60,507 nucleotides of DNA. Origin: a virus. The position numbers were made by a program, and so were the translations under genes. The DNA is taken from positions 1 to 60,507 of the IMG/VR virus record IMGVR_UViG_3300030118_003585. One strand, 5' to 3'. The notes under the pieces were generated by a model. That model saw only the letters and a list, made by a program, of their open reading frames with translations, searched no databases and was not told the DNA's origin. Positions 2,751-26,437 of the stretch are shown here, one piece after another; position 1 is the stretch's first letter, and every line of letters begins with the position of its first letter.

Positions 2751-3395
2751 TTAATTTATTTTGTTATTATACAAGTGCAAGTTGTGTGCAAAATGATAAT
2801 ATGTGCCAACTTCAATATTTAACTTCTCTGCAACATATTTTTGTAATTGGCTAAAGCAGTACTGATCGTTACAAAAGCCATACCAGAGGTCATTAGAACG
2901 CATTACAGCGGCCATATTTAACTCATTATTTAATATTGTAAATTGTACTGCGTATGTACATGGTGTATCATAATCATAATCTAACATCTCTTTACCGTCA
3001 TAAATACTAATAGCTGCTTGCCTTGTGTTTGGTTTATTCTTTAATAAATTAATAACTCTATTTAATTGATCTTCTCTTCTCCATTGCCAGCCGTAATTAG
3101 AGTTTACATTACCATTTGGGAAAGCCATTTTTTGCCATATTGGCGGTACTTTACCATATATTTCACCTAGTTTTTTAATATTTCTATCGCCTGAAATATA
3201 CCATTTCCACTCGGCGTTTGCATAGCTTAATTTCCAAGCTCTTTCTTTATTTGTTATTGCATTAGCTAATGGATTATATATTGTGAAACCAACATTAAAC
3301 AAAGCTTTTGTATCACCATATTCTACGCCTTCAAGTATAATTTTATCTAAAAAATACTCATAAGCTTCGTTAGCATTATAAAATTTAGTCTTCAT
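2751..3395 (-). CDS. Thymidylate synthase family enzyme (dUMP methylase or dCMP hydroxymethylase)
   Basis: The ThyA-type core is visible: a catalytic-cysteine segment DTPCTYAVQF (near residue 142), MRSNDLWYGF (phosphate-binding Arg-Ser and the conserved Asp), and a terminal HNLHLYNN matching the nucleotide-binding His/Tyr region. At 214 residues it is shorter than bacterial ThyA (about 264) and stops soon after the HLYNN motif. In ThyA an Asn after the RSxD motif selects uracil, and dCMP hydroxymethylases carry Asp there. Here the local sequence is GFCND, so alignment could place either residue. The substrate is therefore unresolved. It lies one base from the MazG fusion, in a nucleotide-metabolism block. 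Confidence 0.75.
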   Translation of the reverse strand: MKTKFYNANEAYEYFLDKIILEGVEYGDTKALFNVGFTIYNPLANAITNKERAWKLSYANAEWKWYISGDRNIKKLGEIYGKVPPIWQKMAFPNGNVNSNYGWQWRREDQLNRVINLLKNKPNTRQAAISIYDGKEMLDYDYDTPCTYAVQFTILNNELNMAAVMRSNDLWYGFCNDQYCFSQLQKYVAEKLNIEVGTYYHFAHNLHLYNNKIN

Positions 3396-3651
3396 TTAAT
3401 CTTTTATTATAATAGTACGTATAAAATTCATACATCTTTTGCCATATAATATTTCTTCTATATTTTTCTGGCGATTTATATTTTTTATTATTTATTTTTA
3501 TTTCTATTGACCATTTATCATTAAGTTTTGTTTCAGGAAAAATAATAATATTGTTCCGTAAACACCATAGTCTAGCTTCAATCTCTTCATTTGTAGGATC
3601 GTATTTACCATAATTAATTGTATTACTACCACGGTAATTCTTTTTCCTCAT
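3385..3651 (-). CDS. Conserved phage hypothetical protein (88 aa)
   Basis: An 88-residue basic protein with a YGKYDPTNEEIEARLWCLRN segment (residues 14-33), followed by a strand-rich middle (WSIEIKINNKKYKSP) and an aromatic tail rich in Tyr/Trp. From memory this is a recurring accompaniment of replication genes in marine phages; its function is unknown. It overlaps the C-terminus of the primase-helicase gene by 26 bases and the start of the thymidylate synthase gene by 11, so it is probably translationally coupled to both. Confidence 0.65.
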   Translation of the reverse strand: MRKKNYRGSNTINYGKYDPTNEEIEARLWCLRNNIIIFPETKLNDKWSIEIKINNKKYKSPEKYRRNIIWQKMYEFYTYYYNKRLNED

Positions 3652-6883: not shown

Positions 6884-7614
6884 TAATTAATAAAGTCAAT
6901 TATAAAATCACTATCAACAGTGTTTATTAATTTTTCAATAGCTTCTTTTTTAATTTGTGATACTCTTACAAAATCAGAACTACCAACTATATTTAGCAAC
7001 CCAGCTATTTTTTTAGCAGGTAGTTTATCACAGTCAAGACCAAAGCTCATACGCACGACATCATATTCTTTATCATTTAAATGTGTTTTCATTAAAGATA
7101 AAATGTATTTGTTAAGTATATTAATATTATACTCTTTTGATTTATCTTCGACATCTTTTGTCTCATCTATGTTTTTAAAAACAGAATTAAAAAACATTTG
7201 TACCATTTTACGATCTTCACCACTTTGTTTACGCAACTCATTTAATTTATGTTCTGGTATACGTATACCCCCTCTGTTTGTATCAACTGCTCTTCTCACT
7301 GCTCCGTTTATTCTTTTTTTTATAAAACCCTTAATCTGTCTTTCATATTCGTCTTGAGAGTTCATTACTGTCCAGTCAAGCCGATCCAAAGCTAATATTA
7401 AACCTATATTTGCTTCTTGCATTATATCCATTATGTTCATAATACCTGATGCTTTATCAGAAACTGAAAAGCTGCGCGCAATTGTCTCTGCAAAAGGTAT
7501 TAATGTTATTATTAGTTCTTTTCTAGTGTAGTCTTTCCAAGCTTTTTTTTTAGGCAAACAATTTTTTAAATCACGTTTGTATTTGATATAGTTTGCTAAA
7601 TTGTAGCTTTTCAT
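6883..7614 (-). CDS. Phage RNA polymerase sigma factor (sigma-70 family)
   Basis: A 243-residue sigma-70-like protein. Region 2 is recognisable in IMDIMQEANIGLILALDRLD (about residues 61-80), with the following helix IKKRINGAVRRAV and a basic RIPEHKLNEL region-3-like stretch. Region 4 is represented by LNDKEYDVVRMSFGLDCDKL and an HTH ending RVSQIKKEAIEKL. It would redirect host RNA polymerase core to phage promoters. It overlaps the upstream HTH regulator gene by 44 bases. The repeated ACAG-N20-TATAAT motif is the obvious candidate target, but that link is inference. Confidence 0.85.
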   Translation of the reverse strand: MKSYNLANYIKYKRDLKNCLPKKKAWKDYTRKELIITLIPFAETIARSFSVSDKASGIMNIMDIMQEANIGLILALDRLDWTVMNSQDEYERQIKGFIKKRINGAVRRAVDTNRGGIRIPEHKLNELRKQSGEDRKMVQMFFNSVFKNIDETKDVEDKSKEYNINILNKYILSLMKTHLNDKEYDVVRMSFGLDCDKLPAKKIAGLLNIVGSSDFVRVSQIKKEAIEKLINTVDSDFIIDFIN

Positions 7615-9745: not shown

Positions 9746-10094
9746 TTTTACATATATCTAAAAAAGCTTGTTCGTATAATTCAGCTAAATTTGAATCTGA
9801 TCTCTCATCAAGCTCATCATCAAAATATATATAACCACCCATCATATTTTCTATAACTTCTATTATGTCGTCATACCATGAGTCTTCATAGTAACAAACA
9901 TTATCACAAACAGAAAACTCATGTGTTGAAGTTTTTGAAATATAAACTTCATAACCATCTCTTGTTGATTCTCTATAATATAAATGTGTAGCTGCGTACC
10001 AATCATTAGTAATTTCTATATTCCAATAATCTAAAACAGCTTTTTCTAGACTTTGAAAGTCCATTTTAACTAATTGTTTTTCAGTATATTTCAT
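9702..10094 (-). CDS. Hypothetical acidic protein (130 aa)
   Basis: A 130-residue acidic, aromatic protein with a beta-rich centre (ATHLYYRESTRDGYEVYISK) and a run of Tyr/Glu/Asp (CYYEDSWYDDIIEVIENMM). The acidity could suggest a DNA mimic or protein-binding inhibitor, but nothing specific supports that. It is first in its operon, with promoter copy 10111-10140 placing TATAAT 16 bases before its ATG. Confidence 0.6.
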   Translation of the reverse strand: MKYTEKQLVKMDFQSLEKAVLDYWNIEITNDWYAATHLYYRESTRDGYEVYISKTSTHEFSVCDNVCYYEDSWYDDIIEVIENMMGGYIYFDDELDERSDSNLAELYEQAFLDICKIENEKKNEERVDTQ

Positions 10095-10110
10095 ATTGTT
10101 AATTTTATAT

Positions 10111-10140
10111 ATTATATAAGTTACTTTGTATTAAGACTGT
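10111..10140 (-). promoter_or_regulatory. Early/middle promoter motif copy 2
   Basis: Minus strand: ACAG, then TACAAAG, then TATAAT 20 bases after ACAG. TATAAT is 16 bases before the ATG at 10094. The motif overlaps the 3' end of the small membrane-protein gene at 10131-10244. Confidence 0.75.
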
Positions 10141-10244
10141 AAACTGTTTACTACCCATATTAATACCATGCATATTACAAACAACTTAAAAGTTAAATTA
10201 AGTAGTTTAAATATTTCTTCTTCGTCTTTGTTTCTTCTATTCAT
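10131..10244 (-). CDS. 37-residue single-span membrane protein
   Basis: ATG at 10244 and TAA at 10131. The first 11 residues are charged (MNRRNKDEEEI) and residues about 13-33 form one hydrophobic helix (LLNLTFKLFVICMVLIWVV). This composition is unlikely by chance in such an A/T-rich frame and suggests an inner-membrane peptide. The stop codon lies just inside the promoter motif of the next operon. Function unknown; small phage membrane peptides can act in exclusion or lysis control, but nothing here distinguishes these. Confidence 0.5.
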   Translation of the reverse strand: MNRRNKDEEEIFKLLNLTFKLFVICMVLIWVVNSLQS

Positions 10245-10253
10245 AATAAAAAA

Positions 10254-10328
10254 AATAAAGTGTGACAAAAATTACCCGAACACCTCGTGTGCTCTACCAA
10301 GTAATGAAAACCCATGCCACACTTTATT
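10254..10328 (-). ncRNA. 75-base three-stem structured RNA candidate
   Basis: A nested structure: an outer perfect 11-bp stem (10254-10264 with 10318-10328), a middle 5-bp stem (10271-10275 with 10301-10305) and an inner 6-bp stem (10278-10283 with 10289-10294) with a 5-base loop. The inner stem has one pair that is G-U on the minus strand but A-C on the plus strand, favouring a minus-strand RNA. It begins two bases after the stop codon of 10330-10698 and the outer stem runs into a T-rich tract, so it could also terminate that transcript. Class unknown. Confidence 0.55.
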
Positions 10329-10329
10329 A

Positions 10330-10698
10330 TTACAGTACAAATTCTTTAAAAACAGCTTTTTTACTTTTTGCCATTAAACCGTCTTCAAAAGCTATGGTTA
10401 GTTTTTTACCACCTACGTTCCAGATGTTTGCTATGTTTCTACTATATGACTTATCTCTTTTCCAATCATATATTGTAAACACATTATCGCCTTGTTTTAA
10501 TACCCACTCATAATTTACTTTCTGATCCATTGACTGTCCTAAAATAGGTTCGCCAAACATTTTAACTAGATCATTATAAGTGACATTACACACATAACCT
10601 AATTTAAACGTTCCTGTTGTTATTTTAAACGCCTCTTCTTTTGTCTGTACTTGTTTAAGTTTTTTTAAACCTTTAATTACATTATTAATTCTATTCAT
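10330..10698 (-). CDS. Conserved phage hypothetical protein (122 aa)
   Basis: A 122-residue alpha/beta protein. The middle reads VTYNDLVKMFGEPILG, then a strand-rich part (YEWVLKQGDNVFTIYDWKRD) and IWNVGGKKLTIAFEDGLMA. Proteins with the pattern TYxDLVxxFGEP...xEW...TIYxW occur in many phages (from memory), function unknown. It is flanked on both sides by structured non-coding elements: the ornate RNA candidate upstream and the three-stem RNA immediately downstream. No copy of the repeated promoter precedes it, so it may depend on transcription through the ornate RNA. Confidence 0.65.
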   Translation of the reverse strand: MNRINNVIKGLKKLKQVQTKEEAFKITTGTFKLGYVCNVTYNDLVKMFGEPILGQSMDQKVNYEWVLKQGDNVFTIYDWKRDKSYSRNIANIWNVGGKKLTIAFEDGLMAKSKKAVFKEFVL

Positions 10699-10728
10699 AA
10701 CTTATATTTGTGCTCACTCTGTATTTAC

Positions 10729-11217
10729 ACGGGCTTGTGACCGTCCTTGGCTACATTAAGCACGAGTTAGACAATGTATAGACATTGTAAGGTCTAGCTA
10801 ATCGGTTATCCCGCTTAATCTCGATAGCTTGCTGTAGTGTTCAACCACTATTCTCAAGTATTACTACTCATTGAATAATCATATCTGATTACAACAGTCT
10901 GGCTAACCTCAATAGCGTGAGGTGTTCCTTACCATCAGCCAGCTTCATACCTATCATAGAACAATCTATATCGTTCGTAGTAATAGACCTTAATCACTCT
11001 CAGTATATCTCTGATTATCATACTTATATTTATAAGCACGTCGTCTAGATGACTGAGCAACCCCCTACCCCTTGTTCTCGCAAGGCTTGTTGGGTACTAA
11101 CTCTTCGGTAGGTTTGCAACCCTACCTACGCATATATAAAAGTTGCGGCTGCCAGCCAAAAAATAAATATGAAAAATTCTCTACAGTATAAATCGCACGT
11201 AGAACAGCAGCCACAAC
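10729..11217 (-). ncRNA. Large ornate non-coding RNA candidate (about 490 bases)
   Basis: No gene-like frame fits this 520-base gap, which is visibly more G+C-rich than its surroundings and packed with perfect hairpins: 11107-11126 (6 bp), 11070-11085 (5 bp), 11023-11036 (5-6 bp), 10906-10923 (6 bp) nested inside 10899-10904/10937-10942 (6 bp), 10876-10891 (6 bp, 4-base loop), 10835-10850 (5 bp), 10771-10788 (6 bp), 10729-10744 (4 bp). An 11-bp helix (11142-11152 with 11207-11217) closes the upstream part and contains one G-U pair only if the minus strand is the RNA. Large phage RNAs near tRNA-like genes (GOLLD, ROOL) are an analogy, not an assignment. Confidence 0.55.
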
Positions 11218-11221
11218 TATA

Positions 11222-11518
11222 TTACTTTTTAACTTTATCTAATAATTTTTTTCTCATTTTATCTAGTTCTCTCCAACTATAAAACAGATCATCACCCCAA
11301 TGCATATTCCATGGTGTTATGTTAAGTGCATCACACTTACCTAATATTTTTTCTCTTAACAACCTTGTTTCGCTTATTGTTAACTCCCAATAATTAGCTT
11401 TTGCAAGAGCTTCTTTTATTTCGTTTTTTTCATACTCAAAAGTTTTTTTAGATGCCAAAGCTTTTTCTAGCTTTTTAATTAAACCTTTTCTGAGTTTTTG
11501 TTCTAAATTTTCAAACAT
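11222..11518 (-). CDS. Hypothetical helical protein (98 aa)
   Basis: A 98-residue charged, mainly helical protein (LRKGLIKKLEKALASKK, then KEALAKANYWELTISETRLL) with a Trp-rich C-terminal part (ITPWNMHWGDDLFYSWREL). No family recognised. Promoter copy 11530-11559 lies directly upstream (TATAAT 11 bases before the ATG), and the ornate RNA candidate begins five bases after its stop codon, so both probably share one transcript. Confidence 0.55.
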   Translation of the reverse strand: MFENLEQKLRKGLIKKLEKALASKKTFEYEKNEIKEALAKANYWELTISETRLLREKILGKCDALNITPWNMHWGDDLFYSWRELDKMRKKLLDKVKK

Positions 11519-11529
11519 ATTTTTATTTT

Positions 11530-11559
11530 ATTATATTATTCACCTTGTATTAAGTCTGT
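11530..11559 (-). promoter_or_regulatory. Early/middle promoter motif copy 3
   Basis: Minus strand ACAG-N20-TATAAT, with the central element read as TACAAGG. TATAAT is 11 bases before the ATG at 11518. The motif lies within the 3' end of the small gene 11536-11649. Confidence 0.7.
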
Positions 11560-11649
11560 AATATCGCAGTGCTCATAACAGCACGAACATATTGGTGATG
11601 TGTATAGCACTTGTGCATTACAGCAGTCACTTAATTGTATATTACTCAT
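11536..11649 (-). CDS. 37-residue Cys-rich, probably zinc-binding protein
   Basis: ATG at 11649, TAA at 11536. The sequence has LSDCCNAQVLYTSPICSCCY followed by EHCD, i.e. two CC pairs plus further Cys/His that can form a single treble-clef or ribbon-type zinc site. Very similar tiny proteins (LSDCCGAxV...ICxxC) recur in tailed phages, from memory. It overlaps 11646-11807 by four bases (ATGA-type). The promoter of the next gene is embedded in its coding sequence. Confidence 0.65.
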   Translation of the reverse strand: MSNIQLSDCCNAQVLYTSPICSCCYEHCDITDLIQGE

Positions 11650-11807
11650 TTCCAATTTTTACAACATCTATCACTAATCCAATAATCACCGTACGGATCA
11701 GCTACATTATACTCTGATAACAAACGTCTAGCTTCGTTAATTGTTTCAGCTTCATCTAACGTTTCGTTACCAGTAGTGTTATTAAACTTATAATTTATAT
11801 AAAACAT
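11646..11807 (-). CDS. Hypothetical small protein (53 aa)
   Basis: The ATG at 11807 gives 53 residues; the frame stays open upstream only because it runs through the tRNA-like element, so the longer version is rejected. The protein has EAETINEARRLLSEYNVADP then YGDYWISDRCCKNWK, with an aromatic/Cys C-terminus. Proteins ending in YxISxRxCKxW are common in phage small-gene arrays (from memory). It follows the tRNA-like element by 14 bases and is coupled to the zinc-binding peptide downstream. Confidence 0.6.
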   Translation of the reverse strand: MFYINYKFNNTTGNETLDEAETINEARRLLSEYNVADPYGDYWISDRCCKNWK

Positions 11808-11821
11808 TTCTTTATAATTTG

Positions 11822-11895
11822 AGGACGTGGCAGGAGTCGAACCTGCGTCTGGCACCTTTGCTTACGCCGAGGTTGCCGCCAACCATTTCACGCCC
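11822..11895 (-). tRNA. tRNA-like element: acceptor stem and T-arm intact, anticodon arm unclear
   Basis: On the minus strand a 7-bp acceptor (11889-11895 with 11823-11829, one G-U) is followed at the right distance by a perfect 5-bp T-stem and TTCGACT-type T-loop (GCAGGTTCGACTCCTGC). The total of 73 bases matches class I tRNAs. The middle 40 bases do not give a clean cloverleaf: the best anticodon-like arm is GGCGT/GTGCC with an 8-base loop and no U before the would-be anticodon. An alternative is a 7-bp stem (GGC-ACCT/AGGTGCC) with a 12-base loop. No CCA is encoded. It may be a degenerate tRNA or a tmRNA-style tRNA mimic. Confidence 0.5.
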
Positions 11896-11900
11896 ATAAA

Positions 11901-11945
11901 GGAGGTAGCGGTACGCCGCGCGTTACTGTTACTGCCACTACCTCC
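11901..11945 (-). ncRNA. Unit C: 45-base hairpin element
   Basis: A perfect 8-bp stem (11901-11908 with 11938-11945, GGAGGTAG/CTACCTCC) encloses an inner GCGG/CCGC hairpin with a CGTA loop and the segment AGTGGCAGTAACAG, which resembles AGTGGTAACAG in unit A. It lies six bases from the tRNA-like element and one base from unit B, suggesting one processed or folded transcript. Confidence 0.5.
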
Positions 11946-11946
11946 G

Positions 11947-12042
11947 TCGTTAAGTTAGTGTGGTAGGCGCCCGTTTACACTTGCTGGGTTTACGCCAGTA
12001 CATGTACGCTGCCTCGACTTATAACCTCCTATTTCTTAACGA
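11947..12042 (-). ncRNA. Unit B: 96-base structured element, homologous to unit A
   Basis: It opens with TCGTTAAGAAATAGGAG and closes with CACACTAACTTAACGA, so the ends form an 8-bp stem identical to that of unit A. Inside are TAAGTCGAG, a CTGG/CCAG hairpin, a GTAC palindrome, an AGTG/CACT stem and GGGCGC. The 17-base 5' and 16-base 3' blocks are identical to unit A while the interior differs in sequence and length. This is what a duplicated structured RNA would look like. Only two bases separate it from unit A. Class unknown. Confidence 0.55.
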
Positions 12043-12044
12043 TT

Positions 12045-12129
12045 TCGTTAAGTTAGTGTGATCATTGCGCCCTGTTACCACTACTTTAATAAGTGCAGCT
12101 CGACTTACAGATCTCCTATTTCTTAACGA
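12045..12129 (-). ncRNA. Unit A: 85-base structured element, homologous to unit B
   Basis: It is closed by the 8-bp stem TCGTTAAG (12122-12129) with CTTAACGA (12045-12052). Interior helices are TAAGT/ACTTA with an 8-base loop, and TAGTG/CACTA enclosing GTAACAGGGCGC. The TAA stop codon of the upstream gene (12123-12386) is inside the 5' strand of the closing stem, so the RNA starts exactly where the gene ends. Interior segments TAAGTCGAG and GGGCGC are shared with unit B. I considered a tRNA on either strand and found no T-arm. Confidence 0.55.
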
Positions 12130-12386
12130 TGACTATAATAATATTCTTCAGAAGCTATGTCTACTATTTCTCGTTCTATGTTATCAAGGGTGTCTTGATT
12201 CATATAGCTTAATAACTCCGCGTATTCATTCCTATGCACTCCATTAATTCTAACTGCCTCATACTCAACATCATAGGCGCTCGGTGTATCACGATCACCT
12301 TCTGAATAAAAATACTTATAGTCTATTTCTAAATCAATATTACCTATAGTATACTCTAATGTTCCTTGAACGTGTTTGCCTACCAT
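12123..12386 (-). CDS. Conserved phage hypothetical protein (87 aa)
   Basis: An 87-residue acidic, strand-rich protein: GTLEYTIGNIDLEIDYKYFY, then SEGDRDTPSAYDVEYEAVRI, then a helical C-terminus ending EEYYYSHR. The pattern xYxxGDRxTPxxYxxxxExVxxN recurs in small phage proteins of unknown function (from memory). Its stop codon is part of the closing stem of RNA unit A. It starts 7 bases inside the end of 12380-12595. Confidence 0.6.
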   Translation of the reverse strand: MVGKHVQGTLEYTIGNIDLEIDYKYFYSEGDRDTPSAYDVEYEAVRINGVHRNEYAELLSYMNQDTLDNIEREIVDIASEEYYYSHR

Positions 12387-12595
12387 TTATCTATCCTTTT
12401 AAGTAAATTATCATAGGTTATATCCTCTAATAAACTAAACTCTTCTTGCGTTAATTTATCTGACCAAGCGCTATAACTTAAATCATTGTTTATAGTTTTG
12501 TATATATACTCAGCTATATTACTTTCAAGCTCATCTAAGAACATCTTGTACTCTTTTGAGTTTGTAATTTGGTCATCTTCAATTATTTTGTTCAT
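12380..12595 (-). CDS. Hypothetical acidic helical protein (71 aa)
   Basis: A 71-residue, predominantly helical acidic protein (MFLDELESNIAEYIYKTINN, WSDKLTQEEFSLLEDI). No recognised family. It is first after promoter copy 12612-12641 (TATAAT 16 bases before the ATG) and overlaps the next gene. The transcript from this promoter would run through RNA units A-C and the tRNA-like element. Confidence 0.55.
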   Translation of the reverse strand: MNKIIEDDQITNSKEYKMFLDELESNIAEYIYKTINNDLSYSAWSDKLTQEEFSLLEDITYDNLLKRIDKW

Positions 12596-12716
12596 TTTTT
12601 AATTTATTATTATTATACTCTTTACTTTGTAATCTATCTGTATTACTAAGTAATCTACGTATTTCTCTATTACGTTTTATTGCGTGTAGCATTTGTCTTT
12701 CTTTCCTATGCCTCAT
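12579..12716 (-). CDS. Hypothetical 45-residue basic protein
   Basis: ATG at 12716 and TGA at 12579 give 45 residues: a strongly basic N-terminal helix (MRHRKERQMLHAIKRNREIR) and an Asn/Lys-rich tail. It overlaps the upstream gene by 11 bases and the downstream gene by 17, as real neighbours do here. The tail is encoded by the promoter motif of the next gene, so the frame could be fortuitous. Confidence 0.4.
   Translation of the reverse strand: MRHRKERQMLHAIKRNREIRRLLSNTDRLQSKEYNNNKLKNEQNN
12612..12641 (-). promoter_or_regulatory. Early/middle promoter motif copy 4
   Basis: Minus strand ACAG-N20-TATAAT with central TACAAAG. TATAAT is 16 bases before the ATG at 12595. It lies inside the small basic frame 12579-12716. 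Confidence 0.72.
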
Positions 12717-16702: not shown

Positions 16703-19700
16703 ATGGCTAGAATAAGCAATTATGCTTTTGATACTAACGTAAATAGGCAAGATTTTGTTTTTGGTACTGATAGTTCAACTAACGGTACTAAGAACTTTAA
16801 ATTTGTAGATCTTACAGAGTTTTTTGCACAGCAACAAGAGATATTAGGCAATAAGTTTGCATATAAATATATTAGTGTATCTGATTATAGTAATCTTGCA
16901 GCTGCAGAATTAAGCTTTAATGTCACAACAAGTACTGTAAACTTTTCTGCAATAACAGATATTTACATATATAAGATCAACGCACACGCTGTAGATATAG
17001 AAGCTTATTTAACAGAAATAAAAACCGCAGGTGGTGCACTTACTATATTCAACGGTGCTCAAACTACATCATTTGGTGTATTTAAAATAACTAATATATC
17101 ATCGCATAGCACAAATGTATTAAGACTACAAGTAACAGTAATATCTAAAAATGGATCAATACAAGATAAAAATCTGGCAAATGTATCATTTATATCTCCA
17201 AGTAGCGCAAGTATATTCACAGGCGTAACAACTACAACATCTTCACAATTAACATTAACAAACCCTAACGGACCGGTTGCAACACTTGATATTGTAACAG
17301 GTGCCGTATCTAATAACGGGTCGGGCCTTGCTACGCAAGCGCAAATAAAAAGTTATGTTGATTCACAAATAACAGCACAAGATTTAGACTTCCAAGGTGA
17401 TTCAGGCGGTGCGTTAAACATTGATCTTGACTCTGAAACATTAACTATTACTGGTGGCAGCGGTGTATCTACAGCGGGTAGCGGTAATACTATTACTATT
17501 AATGTAGATCATGATGCAATAACTAATTTTGTAGCTAATGAACATGTTGACCATACAGCAGTGTCTATAACAGCTGGTAATGGTTTAACAGGCGGCGGAA
17601 CTATAGCTTCTACAAGAACAATAGATGTAGGTGAAGGTACAGGTATAACTGTTAGCGCAGATGCAATATCTACTAATGATAGCGAAATAGTTCATGATAA
17701 TTTAAGTGGATTTGTAGCTAATGAGCATATTGATCACAGCGCAGTAACATTAACTGCAGGAACAGGTTTATCAGGTGGTGGCGATATAACAGCTAATAGA
17801 ACATTTAATTTAGCTAACACGTCTGTAACCGCTGGATCATACGGTAGCGCAACAGCAATACCAACATTTACTGTAGATGCACAAGGTAGATTAACGGCTG
17901 CTGGTACTGCATCTATATCTACATCATTTACAATATCAGATGGCTCAACTACTGATTTAGTTAATACTAGCGAAACATTATCTTTTGTAGGAACTACAAA
18001 CGAAATAGAAACTGCAGTAACAAATAATCAAGTACAAATAGGTATTGTAACTAACCCAACATTAACTGGTAATACAACGGTAACAGGAAGTTTAGATGTT
18101 GCAGGAGTAATTAAATTTACTGGTGGCTATGTATTAGATTCAGTACACAGCTTGAGATTAGATTCTGCCGCAAGCCAACCAATTACATTTAGTGTAGCAG
18201 ATAGTGAAAAGATGCGTTTAACATCAACAGGTAATTTTGGTATTGGAACAACAACCCCGGCGTATAAAATTGATATATCAGGTAGTTTAAGAGCAACAGG
18301 CGAAAGTACATTTACATCTAATTTATTGTTTCCTGATAATTCTAGAATAAAACTAGGGACTGGCCAGGATCTAGAAATATTCCACGATGGCAATAGTGTT
18401 ATTAGAAATCAAACTGCTGACTTATTTATTGATAATTATGCTGATGATGGAGATATAAAATTTAGGACTGATGATGGCACTGGTTCTCAAACAGAATATA
18501 TGAGACTAGATGGAGGTTCAACAAACATTGTATTTAGTAAAGATTTATTCCTTAATGATAATGTTAATTTAGGTATGGGTAATGGTGGTGATTATGCACA
18601 ATTTCATGATGGCACCAATACTTATTTATCAAATGGCACTGGAGATTTTTATATAAGAAATCAAGCAGACGACAAAGATATTATATTTCAAGCTGATGAT
18701 GGTAGTGGAGGTAATACTGCTTATTTAAGATTAGATGGTTCTGACAGTATGATGAAGGCTCATAAGAAATTAAGATTTTTAGATACTGTTGAAGCTGCTT
18801 TTGGTAATAATGATGACCTAAAAATATATCACGATGGATCAAATTCTTATGTTTATGATGCAGGTACAGGCGAATTAAGATTGAATTCTGATAACGCAGT
18901 AAGAATAAGAAAACACGACAATGAAACTATGGCATTGTTTACTGTTAATGGTTCTGTTGACTTATATTACGACAATAGTAAAAAGTTTGGAACTACATCA
19001 GATGGAGTTACAATTACAGGTAGTCTAAGTGCTACTACTGAATCTTTTTTCTATGGTGGCTTTTTAGTAACAGATACAAAAATAGGTAAATTTGGAACAG
19101 GTGGAGATTTACAAATATTCCATAACGGTAGTAATTCATTTATAACAAATTTTACAGGTAATCTTACAATTACAAATGAAGCAAACGATAAAGATATTGT
19201 ATTTAAATCTGATGATGGATCTGGAGGGTTTACTGAATATTTAACTCTTGATGGAAGCGCTGAAAAAATATTGATGCATAAATCAACAGTTTTTACAGGT
19301 GGTGGTATGGATTATGGTGTTGACGGTACTGGTGCAGATGTTATATTTTACGGAGATACTGCTGGTAGAAATATGAAGTGGGATCAAAGCGAAGATCATT
19401 TATTATTTACGGATAATACTAAATTAAAACTTGGTACAGGTGGAGACTTAGAAATATATCACGATGGTAGTAATAGTAATTATATCAGATCTACAACTAG
19501 CGATATATATATTAGAAATGAAGGTGATAATGATAGAATATTTATTCAAGCTACAAATAGCAGCACGTTAGCCAACTATTTAACTATTGACGGTAATGTA
19601 GCACTAACAAAATTTCATAAAAACACAAAGCACACAGATAGTATAAAAGCTACTTTTGGCGATAGTTCAGACCTAGAAATATATCATAATGGGAATGATT

Positions 19701-22700
19701 CAGTTATTGATAATTTAACAGGTGACTTATATATTTCTAACAAGGCAGATGATAAAGATATTATATTTAGAGGCGATGATGGTAGTGGAGGATTTACTGA
19801 ATATCTTAGGCTAGATGGCAGTAATACGAATATGGTAGCGTCTAAAACTATTTTATTTTCTGATAATGTAAAAGCTAGTTTTGGTAATAATGAAGATTTA
19901 AGGATCGTACATAATGGAACAAATACAGAATTTAATAATTATAATGGAGGTGTAAATTTTGTTCAACACCAGACTGATGGTGATATGGCATTTTATGCTG
20001 ACGGTGGTTCTGGTTCTGCTGTAGAATATTTTAGGTTAGATGGTAGTCAAACATCTATCAGAATGAAACGTATTACTAAATGGGACGATAACATCAAGGC
20101 TACTTTTGGCGATAGTGGAGATTTAGAAATTTATCATGATGGCAGTAATAGTTATATTAACGAAACAGGTACAGGCGGTTTAAAAATACAAGCTAGAGAT
20201 GCTATAACATTAGAAGACGGCACTACAGGTGAAAATTATATTTATATGCAACGTGATGGTAAAGTTGAACTTTACTATGATGGTTCTGCTAAATTACAAA
20301 CTACAGCCGGCGGAATAGATATAACAGGAACACTAGATACTTCAGGCACTATTGTTTCTACAGGAGGTAATATTAGAGTTGGAAGTGATACTGGTAAGTT
20401 TTTAGCAGGAGCATCAAATGATTTACAAATATATCATGATGGTTCTAATAGTTATATTCAAGATGCAGGTACAGGAAGTTTAATTATTGAAGGCACTACA
20501 TCAACACAAATTAAAGGTAGCGTTTTTGTTATTTTAAGATCTTTAGCAGGTGAAAATATGCTTATTGGTAATGCAAATGGAAGTGTTGATTTATACTATG
20601 ACGCCGTTAAAAAATTAGAAACAACAAGTACAGGTGCAACTGTAACAGGAGACATATTAGCTACCGCTGGAAATATAACATTAGGAACAGATAGTGTTGC
20701 TGGTAACGTTTTAACACCAAGCGATGTTTTAGCATTTACAGTAGATTCAAATAGTAATACAAGCGGTACACCAAATATACAGTTTAAAGTTGGTTCAAGT
20801 GAAAAGATGCGTTTAACATCAGCAGGTAATTTAGGCATAGGCACAGCAAGCCCTAACAGAGAACTTCACGTCATAGGACAGGTTGCAATAGACAACTCAA
20901 CGTCTCCAACAGCAGGTTTTTTAATTACAGGCGATGGTACTTCCAATAAAATTTATTCAAGAGTTGCAAATAATAGTAGTACTGCACATGAATTAGAGTT
21001 TATATTAGGTTCAACTACTGCTTTAACAATATTTCCAGATTTAGCTGCAACTTTTGCAGGTAATGTTACAGTTGGGGGTAACCTAATTGTCAATGGTACA
21101 ACAACCACGTTAAATACACAAACAGTAGAAGTTGAAGATAATATATTACAATTAAACACAACTCAAGGATCACCAGATACAGCTACAGCAACCACATCTG
21201 GTATATCTGTATATAGAGGTAACGGTGTTACACAAGCAAGCTTTATATTTGACGACGCGGACGATACATGGGATTTATCAAATAATTTAGTTATAGAAAA
21301 CACAAGTTCTACTACAAATGATTCCGTTAGCGTATTAAATTTAAAAAGTTTATCTTCTGGTACAACCGCAAATGGCTTTGGTGTAGGTTTAGGGTTTTTT
21401 ACTGAAAACTCAACATATTCTACAGTTAATGAATTAGGTAGGATAGAAGTTGTAGAAACTTCGGAAGTTAATTTGCATGATAAAATGATTTTTTATGTTA
21501 AGCATAATAATGTGCTTGCTGAAAGATTAAATATAACTGGTACAGGTTCAAATTTTGCAAGCAGTGTAACAGCTAAATCTTCTGGATCAAACATAGATGA
21601 AATATCACTAATACATTCTGGTAATACTGTAAAAATAGCTTCATTAGGTCAAAGCTCCGGACACGGTAGTCTAACATTAAGGAATAATAGTGGCGTTGAA
21701 ACAATTTCTGCGTCAACAGATGGAACTGACAGTACAATAAATAATGGTACAGGAAACCTACTTATACAAAACACAGCTAATGATAAAGATATAATATTGA
21801 AGTCAGATGACGGATCGGGCGGAACTACAGAATATTTTAGGTTAGATGGTGGAAACACAAATATTATAGTTTCAAAAGAAATGAGGTTTGGTGATGGTGT
21901 TCAAGCGCAGTTTGGCGCAAGTAACAATCTACAAATACAACATAACAGTGCTAATGGCTCAATAACAAATGCAACAGGCGATTTAACAATACAAAACAGT
22001 GCGGATGATAAAGATATTATATTTAGAACTGATTCTGGCGATGGTGGTACGACTGAATATTTTAGATTAGATGGTAGTGCAGAAAGAAATGTAGCATCTA
22101 AAGAAATAAACCATATAGATAATGTTTATGCAACTTTTGGTACAGGTAGAGATTTAAGATTAATACATGATGGCTCTAATAGTTTCTTTGAAAGTTATAA
22201 TCATAATTTATATATAGATCAAAACTTCGATGATGGAGATATAGTATTTAGAAATGACAATGGTTCAGGCGGTAAAACTACTTATATGACTATTGATGGT
22301 GGAGATGAATTAGTTAAGTTTTCAAGGGGCACTAAACATGCTGACAACGTAAGGGCGCTTTTTGGTAGTGGTTCTGATTTAAATATTTATCATGATGGTA
22401 ATAATTCGATTATTGATAACAATGCAGGAGATATAATTTTAAGATGTGATAGTGATGACATAAAAATATTAGCAGAAGATGATATTGTATTAAGAGATAA
22501 TGATGATAGTACAAATTTTATACATTGTATCAATGGTGGTGCTGTGAAATTATATCATAATGGTAGCGAAAAGTTTGAAACACAAAATACAGGTGTAAAA
22601 GTAACAGGTAATATTACTGTATCATCAGGCGTTGCTATTTTTAATGATGGCAATGGAATAAACTTTGGAAATAGCGATGCAAAAATCTATGGTTCAACTG

Positions 22701-25700
22701 GTACTGGTATACAATTTAATGCAGGTGGTTCAGAAGCAATGCGTCTTAATCAATCTGGTAATTTAGGAATTGGAACAACCTCACCTACGTCGCGTTTAAC
22801 GGTAAAAAGCACTGCAGTTGCTTTAGCAAACCAACCATTAATAGTAGCTAATTTTGATGGAACAGGAACAGACGGTTTAGCATTAATATCTGTAGATCAT
22901 ACAACAGTTAGTACCGCTGCTGCTTTAGGTGCTGGTATAAGATTTAAAACAGGTGATGGAACAACTGGTTCTAACACAAAACCTGGTTATATATTTATGC
23001 AAGGTGCTGGTAATAGTGATATAAAATATATAGCGCCAAGAGCTCATGCTTTTTATGTCGATCATCATGATGATGACTTAACAGGCACAACTTATACTGA
23101 TTATGGTACTTTATCGTTAACATTAAATGAAAATGCTTCTGCAACTTTTGCAGGTAAAATTATTGGTCAAAAAGGTATAGAAATTACTGGTGGTACTATA
23201 GCAAGTTCAACAGCGGTATTACATACAAATAATGTCATTTATTTTAGAGGCGGTAGTAATGGTTTGTTTTTACAAAATTCAGATGGTAGTGATGGTATTT
23301 TTATTGCAAATGATCACATTAAATTTGAAACAGGGAGTTCAGAAAGAATCCGTATTAATTCTTCAGGAAATGTTGGTATTGGAACGACAAGCCCTTCAGG
23401 CGCTTTACACGTGTATAATGGAACATCAGAAAGATTTTTAATTACTGGAGATGTACACGTTCAAGGTTCAACTGATTTAAATATTAATGGAACAAGTAGA
23501 CGATTAAGTTTTACAGCTGGAAGTGGTACAATAAGAACTACAACTGGTAATAGTTTAATACTACAAACAGACAACACTGATGGAATTGTAATTGATGGTT
23601 CTACACAAAAAGTGGGAATAGGAACTGCATCGCCTCAAAATAATTTACATATCTTTAGTGCCGGCAATGCAGAATTAGTATTAGAGCGCAATAGTGGAGC
23701 CGAAATATTACTGCAAGCTCAATCATCAGCAGGTGTAGTAGGAACTCAAACAAATAATGATTTAGATTTAAAAACTAATTCTACTACTAGGATAAGAATA
23801 AAAAATAATGGTAAGGTAGGTATCGGAACAACTTCACCGGGCTCTGAATTACATATAAAACAGGGAGATGACAGCGGTTTTGACGGCGGTTTAACTATTG
23901 AAAGAAGCGCTAATACACAAAAAGTTCATATAGGCATGGATGGTGGTGCTGTTAATTTTAACAGCCCTGATGGTTTAAGTTATAAATTTAGAAATAATAG
24001 TACAGAAAAATTTACTATAGATGGTTCAGGCAATGTAACAGCAAGTGGGTCTAGTAGTTCTTTTGGTACAGGTAATAGCGGTACTTTTATTACAAGCGAT
24101 ACAAATAACTATCCAAGAATTACAATACATCAAGCTAGTGCTCAATTAGGATTATTTAGATCAGGTAATGCTGTTGGAGGTATGTATATAGGCGGTAATG
24201 AAACTGGTTTCCGTATATTTACAGACTCTTTTGCCGAAAAATTTCATTTAGATCAAAGCGGTAATGGAACCTTTGCAGGTTCTGTTTTTACACAATTTAT
24301 AAAAAGTAACTCATCAGTTAGGATTGATATTGATAGCGATAATAACCAAACAGATAGATCATTTTTAATTAGCAAAGACAACGCTGGTACTGAATTGATG
24401 AGAGTTAATGAAGATGGGACTGTTGGTATTGGAACAAGTTCACCTCAAGCTTTATTACACCTTACAGGTACTGGATTACAAGGAGTGCAAGCTTGGTTTG
24501 GTAATGGATTTATAAATAATTCAAATTACCATTATGATTTTGCTAGAGTTGGTTTTTCTGTTCAAGCTACAGATGGTTCTGATACAGGCGCAGGATTTCA
24601 TTTTAATACAAGAAATACAGCAAACAGCAACTGGATGCACGGATATATATATCAACCTCAAAACGGAGGTATAGCGTTTGGTACAGGTGGTGCTGGAACT
24701 ACCTTAGCAACAGAAAAAATGCGCTTAACATCAACAGGTAGTTTAGGAATCGGAACTTCATCTCCTGCTCAAAAATTAGATGTTGAAGGTAACACTAAAT
24801 TAGATTTCAGTTTAATTGGTAGAGGTTTTAGGTCAGCAAATAGAGGTGAATTACATTTAAATGCAACCGGCGCAGATGATGTTGCTGAAATGTTTTTTGG
24901 TCATGGTTCTGGTCATACTGAAGGAAATATTAGATGGGGTATTTCAGACAGAGGTAATTCTAATGGTCAATTACACATTTATCAGGGTCCAGCTTTAGGT
25001 GGTTTTCATCCATTAATGACGTTTAAATCAAGTAACGATTGTGTTGGGATTAATGTAACAGCACCTACTATAAGATTAGATGTTAATGCAGACGCGAGTG
25101 ATAGTGTCGCAAGGTTTACATCAACAGATTCAAATGCAAGAATATTAATTGCAGACGTTGATGATACAATGTACGTAGGTACACAATCAAATAAATTTTA
25201 TATAGGTGCTAACGATAGTGCAACATCTGGTAATTTAATTATTGATACTTCTGGAAACGTAGGAATCGCAACTACTTCGCCTTTGCATAATTTACAAATA
25301 GGTACAGCAGCTACAAACGGTAGTTATTCAATGATGATAGAAGGTAATTTTGGTAATGATGCGTTAGCTTCTAATCCTAGATTAAATTTAATTGACACTA
25401 ATTTTGGAATTACAGCTGGAAAATATGGTAGTGGAACATCAAATGATGCATTAGGAATTTTTGCATATCAAGGCAGTGGAAGAGGTATAATATTTGGCCA
25501 TACAACAGCAGGCACAACTACACATTTAAAAGATATGCGCCATGATATGTTTATAGATGGCGGAGATGGTGATATAGGTATCGGAACGACTACGCCTAGT
25601 ACTAAGCTACACGTGTACGGAACTTTTGATCCTGACGACGCTTTAGGTTATGTTCATATAGAAAATGCTAGTACAACATCGGGCAACCAATCAACAAACG

Positions 25701-26437
25701 CAGCACTAACTATTAAAAACCATCACGGCACGTCTCAATTTATGCAATGGGAAGAAAATGGTTTAAGAATTGGTAGTAGAATTACAACAAATTCTGGAGC
25801 TGGAGATGTTTATTTTACAGCTGGAGCAGATAGTGTTAAAATGGTTTTAAAAGCCTCAGGAAATGTAGGAATCGGAGAAACAAATCCTGATAATAAACTT
25901 CATATTAAAGGCGGCTCAACTACTAGGTTAAAAATAGAAAGTTCTGGTTCTAATACAGGTGTTTTATTAACTGAAAATGGTTCAGATAAATGGAGTGTAG
26001 CAAGTGTTTCTGGTGGTTCTTTTCAATTATTTTCTGAAGCCGCATCTACAACTAGATTTGCTATTGATACTTCAGGTAATGTAGGAATTGGAAATACAAG
26101 CCCATCACAAAAACTTCACGTTACAGGTTCTATATTAGCATCAAGTGATGTTGTAGCTTTTTCAGATAAAAAATTAAAAGAAAATATTAAAACTTTAGAT
26201 GGTTCTAAAGTATATGATATGCGCGGTGTTAGCTTTACTAGAAAAGATACTGGTAAAGATAGTAGCGGTGTTATAGCGCAAGAGATACAAAAAATAGCAC
26301 CAGAATTAGTAACTGATAATGATGGTACATTAAGTGTTGCATACGGTAACCTTACTGGATATTTAATTGAAGCAGTTAAAGAGTTAAAAGCTGAAATAGA
26401 AGAACTTAAAAAACATAGTTGTGATTGTAAAAAATAA
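16703..26437 (+). CDS. Giant tail fibre/appendage protein with C-terminal S74 chaperone-protease (3244 aa)
   Basis: The first 150 residues are unique (probable virion attachment). Then come repeats of two kinds: about twelve of the form DLEIYHDGSNSYI, most followed by DKDIIFRSDDGSGG-like and EYLRLDGS-like segments, and about twelve of the form NVGIGTTSPxxxLHV. These read as beta-helical or trimeric beta-rich fibre repeats. The C-terminus from about residue 3153 (FSDKKLKENIKTLDG, GVIAQEIQKIAPELV, YLIEAVKELKAEIEELKK) is the intramolecular chaperone of endosialidase family (peptidase S74). It directs trimerisation and cleaves itself off just before the Ser of the Ser-Asp pair. Role: host recognition. 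Confidence 0.9.
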   Translation: MARISNYAFDTNVNRQDFVFGTDSSTNGTKNFKFVDLTEFFAQQQEILGNKFAYKYISVSDYSNLAAAELSFNVTTSTVNFSAITDIYIYKINAHAVDIEAYLTEIKTAGGALTIFNGAQTTSFGVFKITNISSHSTNVLRLQVTVISKNGSIQDKNLANVSFISPSSASIFTGVTTTTSSQLTLTNPNGPVATLDIVTGAVSNNGSGLATQAQIKSYVDSQITAQDLDFQGDSGGALNIDLDSETLTITGGSGVSTAGSGNTITINVDHDAITNFVANEHVDHTAVSITAGNGLTGGGTIASTRTIDVGEGTGITVSADAISTNDSEIVHDNLSGFVANEHIDHSAVTLTAGTGLSGGGDITANRTFNLANTSVTAGSYGSATAIPTFTVDAQGRLTAAGTASISTSFTISDGSTTDLVNTSETLSFVGTTNEIETAVTNNQVQIGIVTNPTLTGNTTVTGSLDVAGVIKFTGGYVLDSVHSLRLDSAASQPITFSVADSEKMRLTSTGNFGIGTTTPAYKIDISGSLRATGESTFTSNLLFPDNSRIKLGTGQDLEIFHDGNSVIRNQTADLFIDNYADDGDIKFRTDDGTGSQTEYMRLDGGSTNIVFSKDLFLNDNVNLGMGNGGDYAQFHDGTNTYLSNGTGDFYIRNQADDKDIIFQADDGSGGNTAYLRLDGSDSMMKAHKKLRFLDTVEAAFGNNDDLKIYHDGSNSYVYDAGTGELRLNSDNAVRIRKHDNETMALFTVNGSVDLYYDNSKKFGTTSDGVTITGSLSATTESFFYGGFLVTDTKIGKFGTGGDLQIFHNGSNSFITNFTGNLTITNEANDKDIVFKSDDGSGGFTEYLTLDGSAEKILMHKSTVFTGGGMDYGVDGTGADVIFYGDTAGRNMKWDQSEDHLLFTDNTKLKLGTGGDLEIYHDGSNSNYIRSTTSDIYIRNEGDNDRIFIQATNSSTLANYLTIDGNVALTKFHKNTKHTDSIKATFGDSSDLEIYHNGNDSVIDNLTGDLYISNKADDKDIIFRGDDGSGGFTEYLRLDGSNTNMVASKTILFSDNVKASFGNNEDLRIVHNGTNTEFNNYNGGVNFVQHQTDGDMAFYADGGSGSAVEYFRLDGSQTSIRMKRITKWDDNIKATFGDSGDLEIYHDGSNSYINETGTGGLKIQARDAITLEDGTTGENYIYMQRDGKVELYYDGSAKLQTTAGGIDITGTLDTSGTIVSTGGNIRVGSDTGKFLAGASNDLQIYHDGSNSYIQDAGTGSLIIEGTTSTQIKGSVFVILRSLAGENMLIGNANGSVDLYYDAVKKLETTSTGATVTGDILATAGNITLGTDSVAGNVLTPSDVLAFTVDSNSNTSGTPNIQFKVGSSEKMRLTSAGNLGIGTASPNRELHVIGQVAIDNSTSPTAGFLITGDGTSNKIYSRVANNSSTAHELEFILGSTTALTIFPDLAATFAGNVTVGGNLIVNGTTTTLNTQTVEVEDNILQLNTTQGSPDTATATTSGISVYRGNGVTQASFIFDDADDTWDLSNNLVIENTSSTTNDSVSVLNLKSLSSGTTANGFGVGLGFFTENSTYSTVNELGRIEVVETSEVNLHDKMIFYVKHNNVLAERLNITGTGSNFASSVTAKSSGSNIDEISLIHSGNTVKIASLGQSSGHGSLTLRNNSGVETISASTDGTDSTINNGTGNLLIQNTANDKDIILKSDDGSGGTTEYFRLDGGNTNIIVSKEMRFGDGVQAQFGASNNLQIQHNSANGSITNATGDLTIQNSADDKDIIFRTDSGDGGTTEYFRLDGSAERNVASKEINHIDNVYATFGTGRDLRLIHDGSNSFFESYNHNLYIDQNFDDGDIVFRNDNGSGGKTTYMTIDGGDELVKFSRGTKHADNVRALFGSGSDLNIYHDGNNSIIDNNAGDIILRCDSDDIKILAEDDIVLRDNDDSTNFIHCINGGAVKLYHNGSEKFETQNTGVKVTGNITVSSGVAIFNDGNGINFGNSDAKIYGSTGTGIQFNAGGSEAMRLNQSGNLGIGTTSPTSRLTVKSTAVALANQPLIVANFDGTGTDGLALISVDHTTVSTAAALGAGIRFKTGDGTTGSNTKPGYIFMQGAGNSDIKYIAPRAHAFYVDHHDDDLTGTTYTDYGTLSLTLNENASATFAGKIIGQKGIEITGGTIASSTAVLHTNNVIYFRGGSNGLFLQNSDGSDGIFIANDHIKFETGSSERIRINSSGNVGIGTTSPSGALHVYNGTSERFLITGDVHVQGSTDLNINGTSRRLSFTAGSGTIRTTTGNSLILQTDNTDGIVIDGSTQKVGIGTASPQNNLHIFSAGNAELVLERNSGAEILLQAQSSAGVVGTQTNNDLDLKTNSTTRIRIKNNGKVGIGTTSPGSELHIKQGDDSGFDGGLTIERSANTQKVHIGMDGGAVNFNSPDGLSYKFRNNSTEKFTIDGSGNVTASGSSSSFGTGNSGTFITSDTNNYPRITIHQASAQLGLFRSGNAVGGMYIGGNETGFRIFTDSFAEKFHLDQSGNGTFAGSVFTQFIKSNSSVRIDIDSDNNQTDRSFLISKDNAGTELMRVNEDGTVGIGTSSPQALLHLTGTGLQGVQAWFGNGFINNSNYHYDFARVGFSVQATDGSDTGAGFHFNTRNTANSNWMHGYIYQPQNGGIAFGTGGAGTTLATEKMRLTSTGSLGIGTSSPAQKLDVEGNTKLDFSLIGRGFRSANRGELHLNATGADDVAEMFFGHGSGHTEGNIRWGISDRGNSNGQLHIYQGPALGGFHPLMTFKSSNDCVGINVTAPTIRLDVNADASDSVARFTSTDSNARILIADVDDTMYVGTQSNKFYIGANDSATSGNLIIDTSGNVGIATTSPLHNLQIGTAATNGSYSMMIEGNFGNDALASNPRLNLIDTNFGITAGKYGSGTSNDALGIFAYQGSGRGIIFGHTTAGTTTHLKDMRHDMFIDGGDGDIGIGTTTPSTKLHVYGTFDPDDALGYVHIENASTTSGNQSTNAALTIKNHHGTSQFMQWEENGLRIGSRITTNSGAGDVYFTAGADSVKMVLKASGNVGIGETNPDNKLHIKGGSTTRLKIESSGSNTGVLLTENGSDKWSVASVSGGSFQLFSEAASTTRFAIDTSGNVGIGNTSPSQKLHVTGSILASSDVVAFSDKKLKENIKTLDGSKVYDMRGVSFTRKDTGKDSSGVIAQEIQKIAPELVTDNDGTLSVAYGNLTGYLIEAVKELKAEIEELKKHSCDCKK

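Follow-up and report, generated by a model that had tools for sequence, protein, structure and literature searches.

A structured phage RNA of about 380 nucleotides with a putative twister ribozyme at its 3′ end

The stretch of DNA analysed here (the window) is the whole of the virus record IMGVR_UViG_3300030118_003585, 60.5 kb in length. Its terminase, portal, GroEL and structural proteins match known PHROGs. Compared by terminase, the named relatives are an uncultured podovirus (62% identity) and, at ~45%, phages of Flavobacterium, Cellulophaga and others; the host is probably a marine member of the Bacteroidota. A single ORF of 3244 aa (16703-26437, plus strand) comes first among the large genes in the rightward run. 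The region of interest lies between two small ORFs on the minus strand, one of 98 aa (11222..11518), for which no relative was seen among the viral contigs searched, and one of 122 aa (10330..10698). Between them (10699-11221), neither strand has an ORF of at least 60 aa, and the G+C content is 0.38-0.41 versus ~0.25-0.32 in the flanks, as an earlier note on this DNA had said in describing ~490 bases that lack a gene-like frame and are richer in G+C than their surroundings. We report that window 10710-11135 (minus strand) is a structured non-coding RNA of ~380 nt.

Folded on its own, the minus strand reaches -152.8 kcal/mol, compared with -129.8 +/- 6.0 for 100 dinucleotide shuffles, none of which folds as well (z -3.84). 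The plus strand gives a similar value (z -3.82), so folding energy leaves the strand unsettled, and it is the alignment of relatives, described below, that settles it.

At its curated cut-offs, Rfam finds nothing in the window. Relaxing the threshold to E up to 10 brings up a twister-P1 match, a weak tRNA-Sec match and a chance microRNA match, and nothing else. The twister match (RF03160, 10711-10762, minus strand) covers the full model (1-68 of 68) with 56.2 bits (E 2.6e-11, or 1.1e-12 on a shorter stretch); it surfaced only with permissive thresholds, the gathering cut-off of the family being 67.2 bits. The scores are 54.8-56.2 bits in the window and in contigs L011, L015, L019, L022 and L004, and every member checked falls below 67.2 bits. 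In the alignment to the model, stem P3 is absent and the remaining consensus is kept, including UAA, CGGUC-CAAGCCCG, GUAAA and GAG. We regard 10710-10763 as very probably a twister lacking P3, not as a curated member of RF03160. The earlier note had ended the RNA at 10729, a position inside this ribozyme, which extends to ~10710; the twister, which that note overlooked, is the most concrete step toward a mechanism. Twisters cut within the conserved UAA and leave a 2',3'-cyclic phosphate. By the position of this UAA, we take the cut to fall between U10758 and A10757.

Relatives were collected with sequence patterns. A pattern of the twister core matches 24 viral contigs. The window RNA can be aligned with the ~400 nt preceding the twister in four of these, L011, L015, L019 and L022, and in part also in L006; a stricter pattern taken from the 5′ end of the RNA only finds exactly L011, L015, L019 and L022. 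A twister pattern that includes the shared P1 sequence added L107, which is divergent along the entire RNA. A relaxed pattern of the 5′ half, containing no twister letters, matches 15 viral contigs, and in 15 of 15 a twister lies ~350-430 nt downstream. The same pattern has six matches in cellular genomes, none with a twister, and R1, the covariance model of the 5′ domain, matches none; we consider these six to be chance matches. In total, IMG/VR contigs supplied 15 more relatives of full length and so, with the window, 16 RNAs, of which 13 are close to each other (the sampling is uneven). L127 and L128 were left out because their 3′ ends lie near the end of the contig and the RNA is not whole. 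At every member locus, the 5′ domain and the twister end of the family are each present once.

One member, L120, comes from a close phage, whose portal is 77% identical to that of the window. The L011 phage is crAss-like by its portal, and its terminase is only ~23% identical to that of the window; most relatives are assigned to crAss-like phages, members beside L011 being placed by the RNA and not all by their genes. Among 40 relatives of the window terminase (TerL, 75-79% identical; contigs of 10-69 kb, many of them fragments), R1 has no match beyond two at chance level (~14 bits). R1 was used here because the Rfam twister search of 45 TerL relatives returned no match, and its control likewise none. 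The lack of R1 matches in these 40 suggests that the RNA is patchy and not essential to the group as a whole; by these comparisons, it would span a large phage distance and yet be patchily distributed. No relatives were found via the two flanking proteins. A DNA similarity search of named phages with the window region gave none either; searches with L011 or L120 matched gut phages at the twister core alone, apart from a chance match.

RNAalifold returns essentially one fold for the 13 close members, for 14 and for all 16. In the alignment of 16 sequences (A1), the 125 pairs of this fold hold in 95.6% of cells, compared with 36-45% when the partners are slid, these pairs being counted on the same alignment from which the structure was derived. 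Sixty of the 125 pairs change on both sides; such changes occupy 204 cells versus 64 in shuffles, and none of 500 shuffles has as many. The alignment is faulty at one helix for the window and L120. The divergent L107 keeps 102 of 108 pairs, and pairing survives in 31 of its 34 doubly changed pairs; in slid controls it does so in about half. Between the window and L120 (82% identical), all 149 pairs of the joint fold are kept, with 8 compensatory changes, 13 one-sided changes and none broken. Under a null that preserves the tree and the substitutions per branch, the number of pairs with E <= 0.05 is 12 of 124, compared with 0-2 for slid structures. An all-against-all covariation test, underpowered with 15 distinct sequences, finds one column pair below E 0.05, and its structure-targeted version was used instead. 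The paired cells include 257 G-U and 16 A-C, which identifies the RNA with the minus strand, in line with the earlier inference. Pairs covary over the whole fold, the long-range closing helix included. The proposal of a long structured RNA, possibly of a new class, is thus borne out by homologues in phage contigs, by a covarying fold and by the lack of an Rfam family for the body.

The body of the RNA, read 5′ to 3′ on the minus strand, is the homologous region of A1 and measures ~378 nt up to the predicted cut (10758..11135); its 5′ end is approximate, set where similarity between members begins. Upstream of it is a separate 5′ hairpin (11142..11217) with a helix of 11 bp (11217-11207 / 11152-11142) that is present only in the window and L120, the latter having compensatory changes at 11214/11145 and 11209/11150. 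The earlier note had recognized this helix and its single wobble pair (11213/11146) correctly and had taken it for the closing helix, a role that belongs instead to the conserved helix 11103-11097 / 10770-10764. In this conserved helix (helix 2), the 5′ strand GAGUUAG (11097..11103) pairs with the 3′ strand CUAACUC (10764..10770) in 100% of cells, two pairs change on both sides, and the column pairs 35-439 and 37-437 are among those with E <= 0.05 under the tree-preserving null. The 3′ strand directly abuts the twister, whose P1 starts at the next base (A1 columns 441/442).

Before the closing helix stands a 5′ hairpin with an 8-nt loop (11107..11125; helix 1), whose stem covaries (column pair 15-24, E 0.0002). 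Its loop holds the self-complementary hexamer UUGCAA (11114-11119) and reads N-UUGCAA-R in 16 of 16 members, an invariance that is partly built in, as 10 of the 16 came from a pattern containing TTGCAA; the six members found independently of this pattern also carry it. Since UUGCAA is its own reverse complement, the sequence suggests a candidate kissing loop that would pair two copies of the RNA. A pairing of this loop with that of the 3′ hairpin (UUGUAA in L011) was considered and rejected, as it is missing from other members.

Within the closing helix, the 5′ domain (10991..11094) is a multi-arm structure of helices 3-8 on which R1 is based, and it includes a GUC-AUCUA-GAC hairpin at 11053-11043. 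The central domain (10789..10990) comprises several hairpins (helices 9-16) and, in the joint fold of the window and L120, is enclosed by helix 10990-10983 / 10796-10789. It is the most variable part of the RNA, and its length differs among subfamilies; in L114 and L119 it is longer, with a replaced arm and ~40 extra nt, which points to modules being exchanged within the RNA. The closing strand is immediately preceded by the 3′ hairpin ACAAUG-UCUAUA-CAUUGU (10771..10788; helix 17), in which four of four pairs change on both sides somewhere and which has the strongest covariation signal (column pair 419-432).

The twister that forms the 3′ end (10710..10763) shares in this covariation. Its stems P1, P2 and P4 (helices 18, 19 and 20) are 100% paired with compensatory changes, and column pairs 445-495, 450-488, 451-487 and 462-475 reach E <= 0.05 under the tree-preserving null. 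Eight of the 15 contigs matched by the relaxed 5′-half pattern have a variant core, ACUGGUC...CCCAGU, with stem P4 changed on both strands. The letters of the core loops are mostly invariant and so would yield no covariation for the two core pseudoknots. P1 is nearly constant in sequence (GUGCUU/GUGUUU/GCGCUU).

No known family accounts for the body. GOLLD and ROOL, which the earlier note had named for comparison, have no match at their gathering scores, nor at E up to 10 in 10000-12600, and none in L011, L015, L019 or L022 at E up to 0.5. The models of OLE, RNase P and group I introns, which the same note had listed, give no match either, and neither do those of group II introns, tmRNA and 6S RNA. 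Judged by these searches, the RNA belongs to a new family, with a body absent from Rfam and a twister match in the last 52 nt.

The RNA has no fixed neighbour gene. It is directed away from the terminase (window, L011 and L107) or from the portal (L120). The ORFs that follow it belong to seven unrelated families and those that precede it to at least nine. The twister is followed by the start of an ORF at a distance of 12-41 nt in most members and of 12 nt in the window, where it is the 122-aa ORF; the homologue of this ORF in L120, 47% identical over 81 aa (E 1e-24), is found 5′ of the RNA. These unrelated neighbours, and the homologue on the other side, suggest that the RNA works in trans and is probably not a cis-regulator; trans action is the most likely reading, drawn solely from the neighbouring genes. 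A Bacteroidota-type promoter was not found before the RNA on the minus strand, and sigma-70-like sites occur there at near chance level.

Several other elements lie nearby. The tRNA-like element that the earlier note placed 600 bases away (11823-11898, minus strand) turned out to be a tRNA-like end, with a 7-bp acceptor stem and a T arm (UUCGACU loop), no normal D or anticodon arm and no ARAGORN call. L120 also has such an end, at 7395-7500 (plus strand), which lies ~80 nt before its large RNA and whose acceptor stem differs by compensated changes. Beside the tRNA-like end of the window, two tandem G+C-rich units of ~90 nt (11947-12130, minus strand), bounded by CGTTAAG...CTTAACGA, are possibly another structured RNA. 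Just upstream of the large RNA, three members have a short hairpin with ACCACACTYGGTAA and a covarying outer stem (L011 1497-1510, L111 6274-6287 and L117 4833-4846, all minus strand). An element with CTAAGCARGAAGAYAAACTG occurs just before the RNA in L116, before a twister in L020 and elsewhere in L118.

Phages also carry twisters apart from the large RNA. Among the 24 phage contigs, most of the other twisters follow a stop codon by a few nucleotides and stand between tandem ORFs, without such a body, which suggests that phages use twisters to split operon transcripts. The human gut phage MT835475.1 (L130) has two of them ~410 nt apart (2986-3476), each between tandem small ORFs. In L004 (6884-7719, plus strand), a Pistol ribozyme (52 bits, above its cut-off) is followed by a small ORF, ~370 nt of non-coding sequence and a twister; this non-coding stretch probably represents another RNA, unrelated to the first, that ends in a twister.

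The reading that we consider likely is that these large, structured phage RNAs form a new family, act in trans and are released at the 3′ end by a ribozyme of their own. The main rival is a natural allosteric ribozyme acting in cis, in which a riboswitch-like body would sense a signal, the closing helix at P1 would switch the cut, and the downstream genes would be controlled. The architecture invites this idea, as an almost unvarying P1 follows the closing helix with no nucleotide between and an ORF begins shortly past the twister in most members. Riboswitch classes, however, keep to a gene set, whereas the ORFs downstream here are unrelated, and the many phage twisters that lack a body imply that the ribozyme needs no sensor; we judge regulation of this kind unlikely. 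A still less probable account sees the body as a mere stabilizing or insulating structure of a polycistronic early mRNA, with the twister as a generic intercistronic cutter and the RNA itself without function. The general use of twisters between phage genes fits such operon splitting, but a structure of ~380 nt whose loops are invariant, and whose long-range fold persists across a large sequence distance, exceeds what a stabilizing hairpin would need, and it is always this body that stands in front of unrelated genes.

Circularization was also considered: an RNA cut at its 5′ end as well could be closed into a stable circle if an RtcB-type ligase joined that end to the twister-made 3′ end, the principle of the engineered Tornado system. 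The chemistry is established, in that RtcB-type ligases use the 2',3'-cyclic phosphate left by twisters; the closing helix brings both ends together, the ligase could be that of the host, and in L004 the Pistol ribozyme lies ~720 nt before the twister. Yet a known ribozyme at the 5′ end is absent in every member tested, and no RtcB was found in the record of the window or in six related records by a search whose control was positive in nine genomes. The sequence between the two ribozymes of L004 is not purely non-coding, since it holds an ORF. On account of this ORF and the missing RtcB, we rejected a natural Tornado circle as the main reading. We regard a circular RNA as very improbable.

For the trans-acting, self-released RNA, we propose the following course. 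The RNA would be transcribed from the minus strand within a run of small genes pointing away from the packaging genes. The body would form one closed unit with its ends joined by the closing helix, and the directly adjoining twister would fold and cut at the predicted site. The RNA would keep the cyclic-phosphate 3′ end, and the downstream mRNA would begin with a 5′-OH and the remainder of the twister and, in the window, would carry the 122-aa ORF. Once freed, the RNA would most likely act in trans during infection, possibly as a dimer or larger assembly held by the UUGCAA loop. More tentatively, the self-trimmed ~380-nt RNA may form RNA-only oligomers via UUGCAA and influence host or phage gene expression in trans, and the twister would be the enzyme dedicated to maturing it; we hold this fuller version to be possible but doubtful.

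GOLLD and ROOL build RNA-only cages, and kissing loops join their copies (PMC12286853). Like them, the RNA described here is large, complex, non-coding and carried by phages; it has a palindromic loop, seen in its sequence, where they have kissing loops, and a tRNA-like element nearby where they have tRNAs. They are analogues in kind, not relatives: our RNA matches neither in Rfam, is ~380 nt long compared with more than 800 nt in many GOLLD members, and ends in a self-cleaving ribozyme. For the 3′ end, HDV-like theta ribozymes follow gut-phage tRNAs and have been proposed to make 3′ ends by removing tRNA trailers (PMC10879173). There too, a self-cleaving ribozyme comes directly after a phage non-coding RNA, and the hosts are mostly Bacteroidota; here the ribozyme is a twister and not HDV-like, and what it would trim is no tRNA but a large RNA of new fold. 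The theta ribozymes are a precedent for the trimming that the twister would perform at the 3′ end of the large RNA. The twister itself resembles RF03160 in its full-length match at the 3′ end, its conserved core letters and its covarying P1, P2 and P4, and differs from it in lacking P3, in scoring below the curated cut-off and in being joined to a closing helix. The literature searched, which covered a limited set of journals and is therefore weak evidence, holds no description of a twister joined without a gap to a large conserved RNA. The kind of RNA, a large phage RNA, is known; the form, with a 3′ end made by its own twister, appears to be new.

Ribozymes that cut themselves often lie close to phage genes, and bacterial twisters are associated with such genes for a reason that has been described as unknown (PMC10085705). 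A twister tied to a conserved large RNA across distantly related phages would have a direct job, that of making the 3′ end, and the oligomer reading, if true, would give a phage twister a concrete biological role. The small set of large phage RNAs, GOLLD and ROOL among them, would gain a family.
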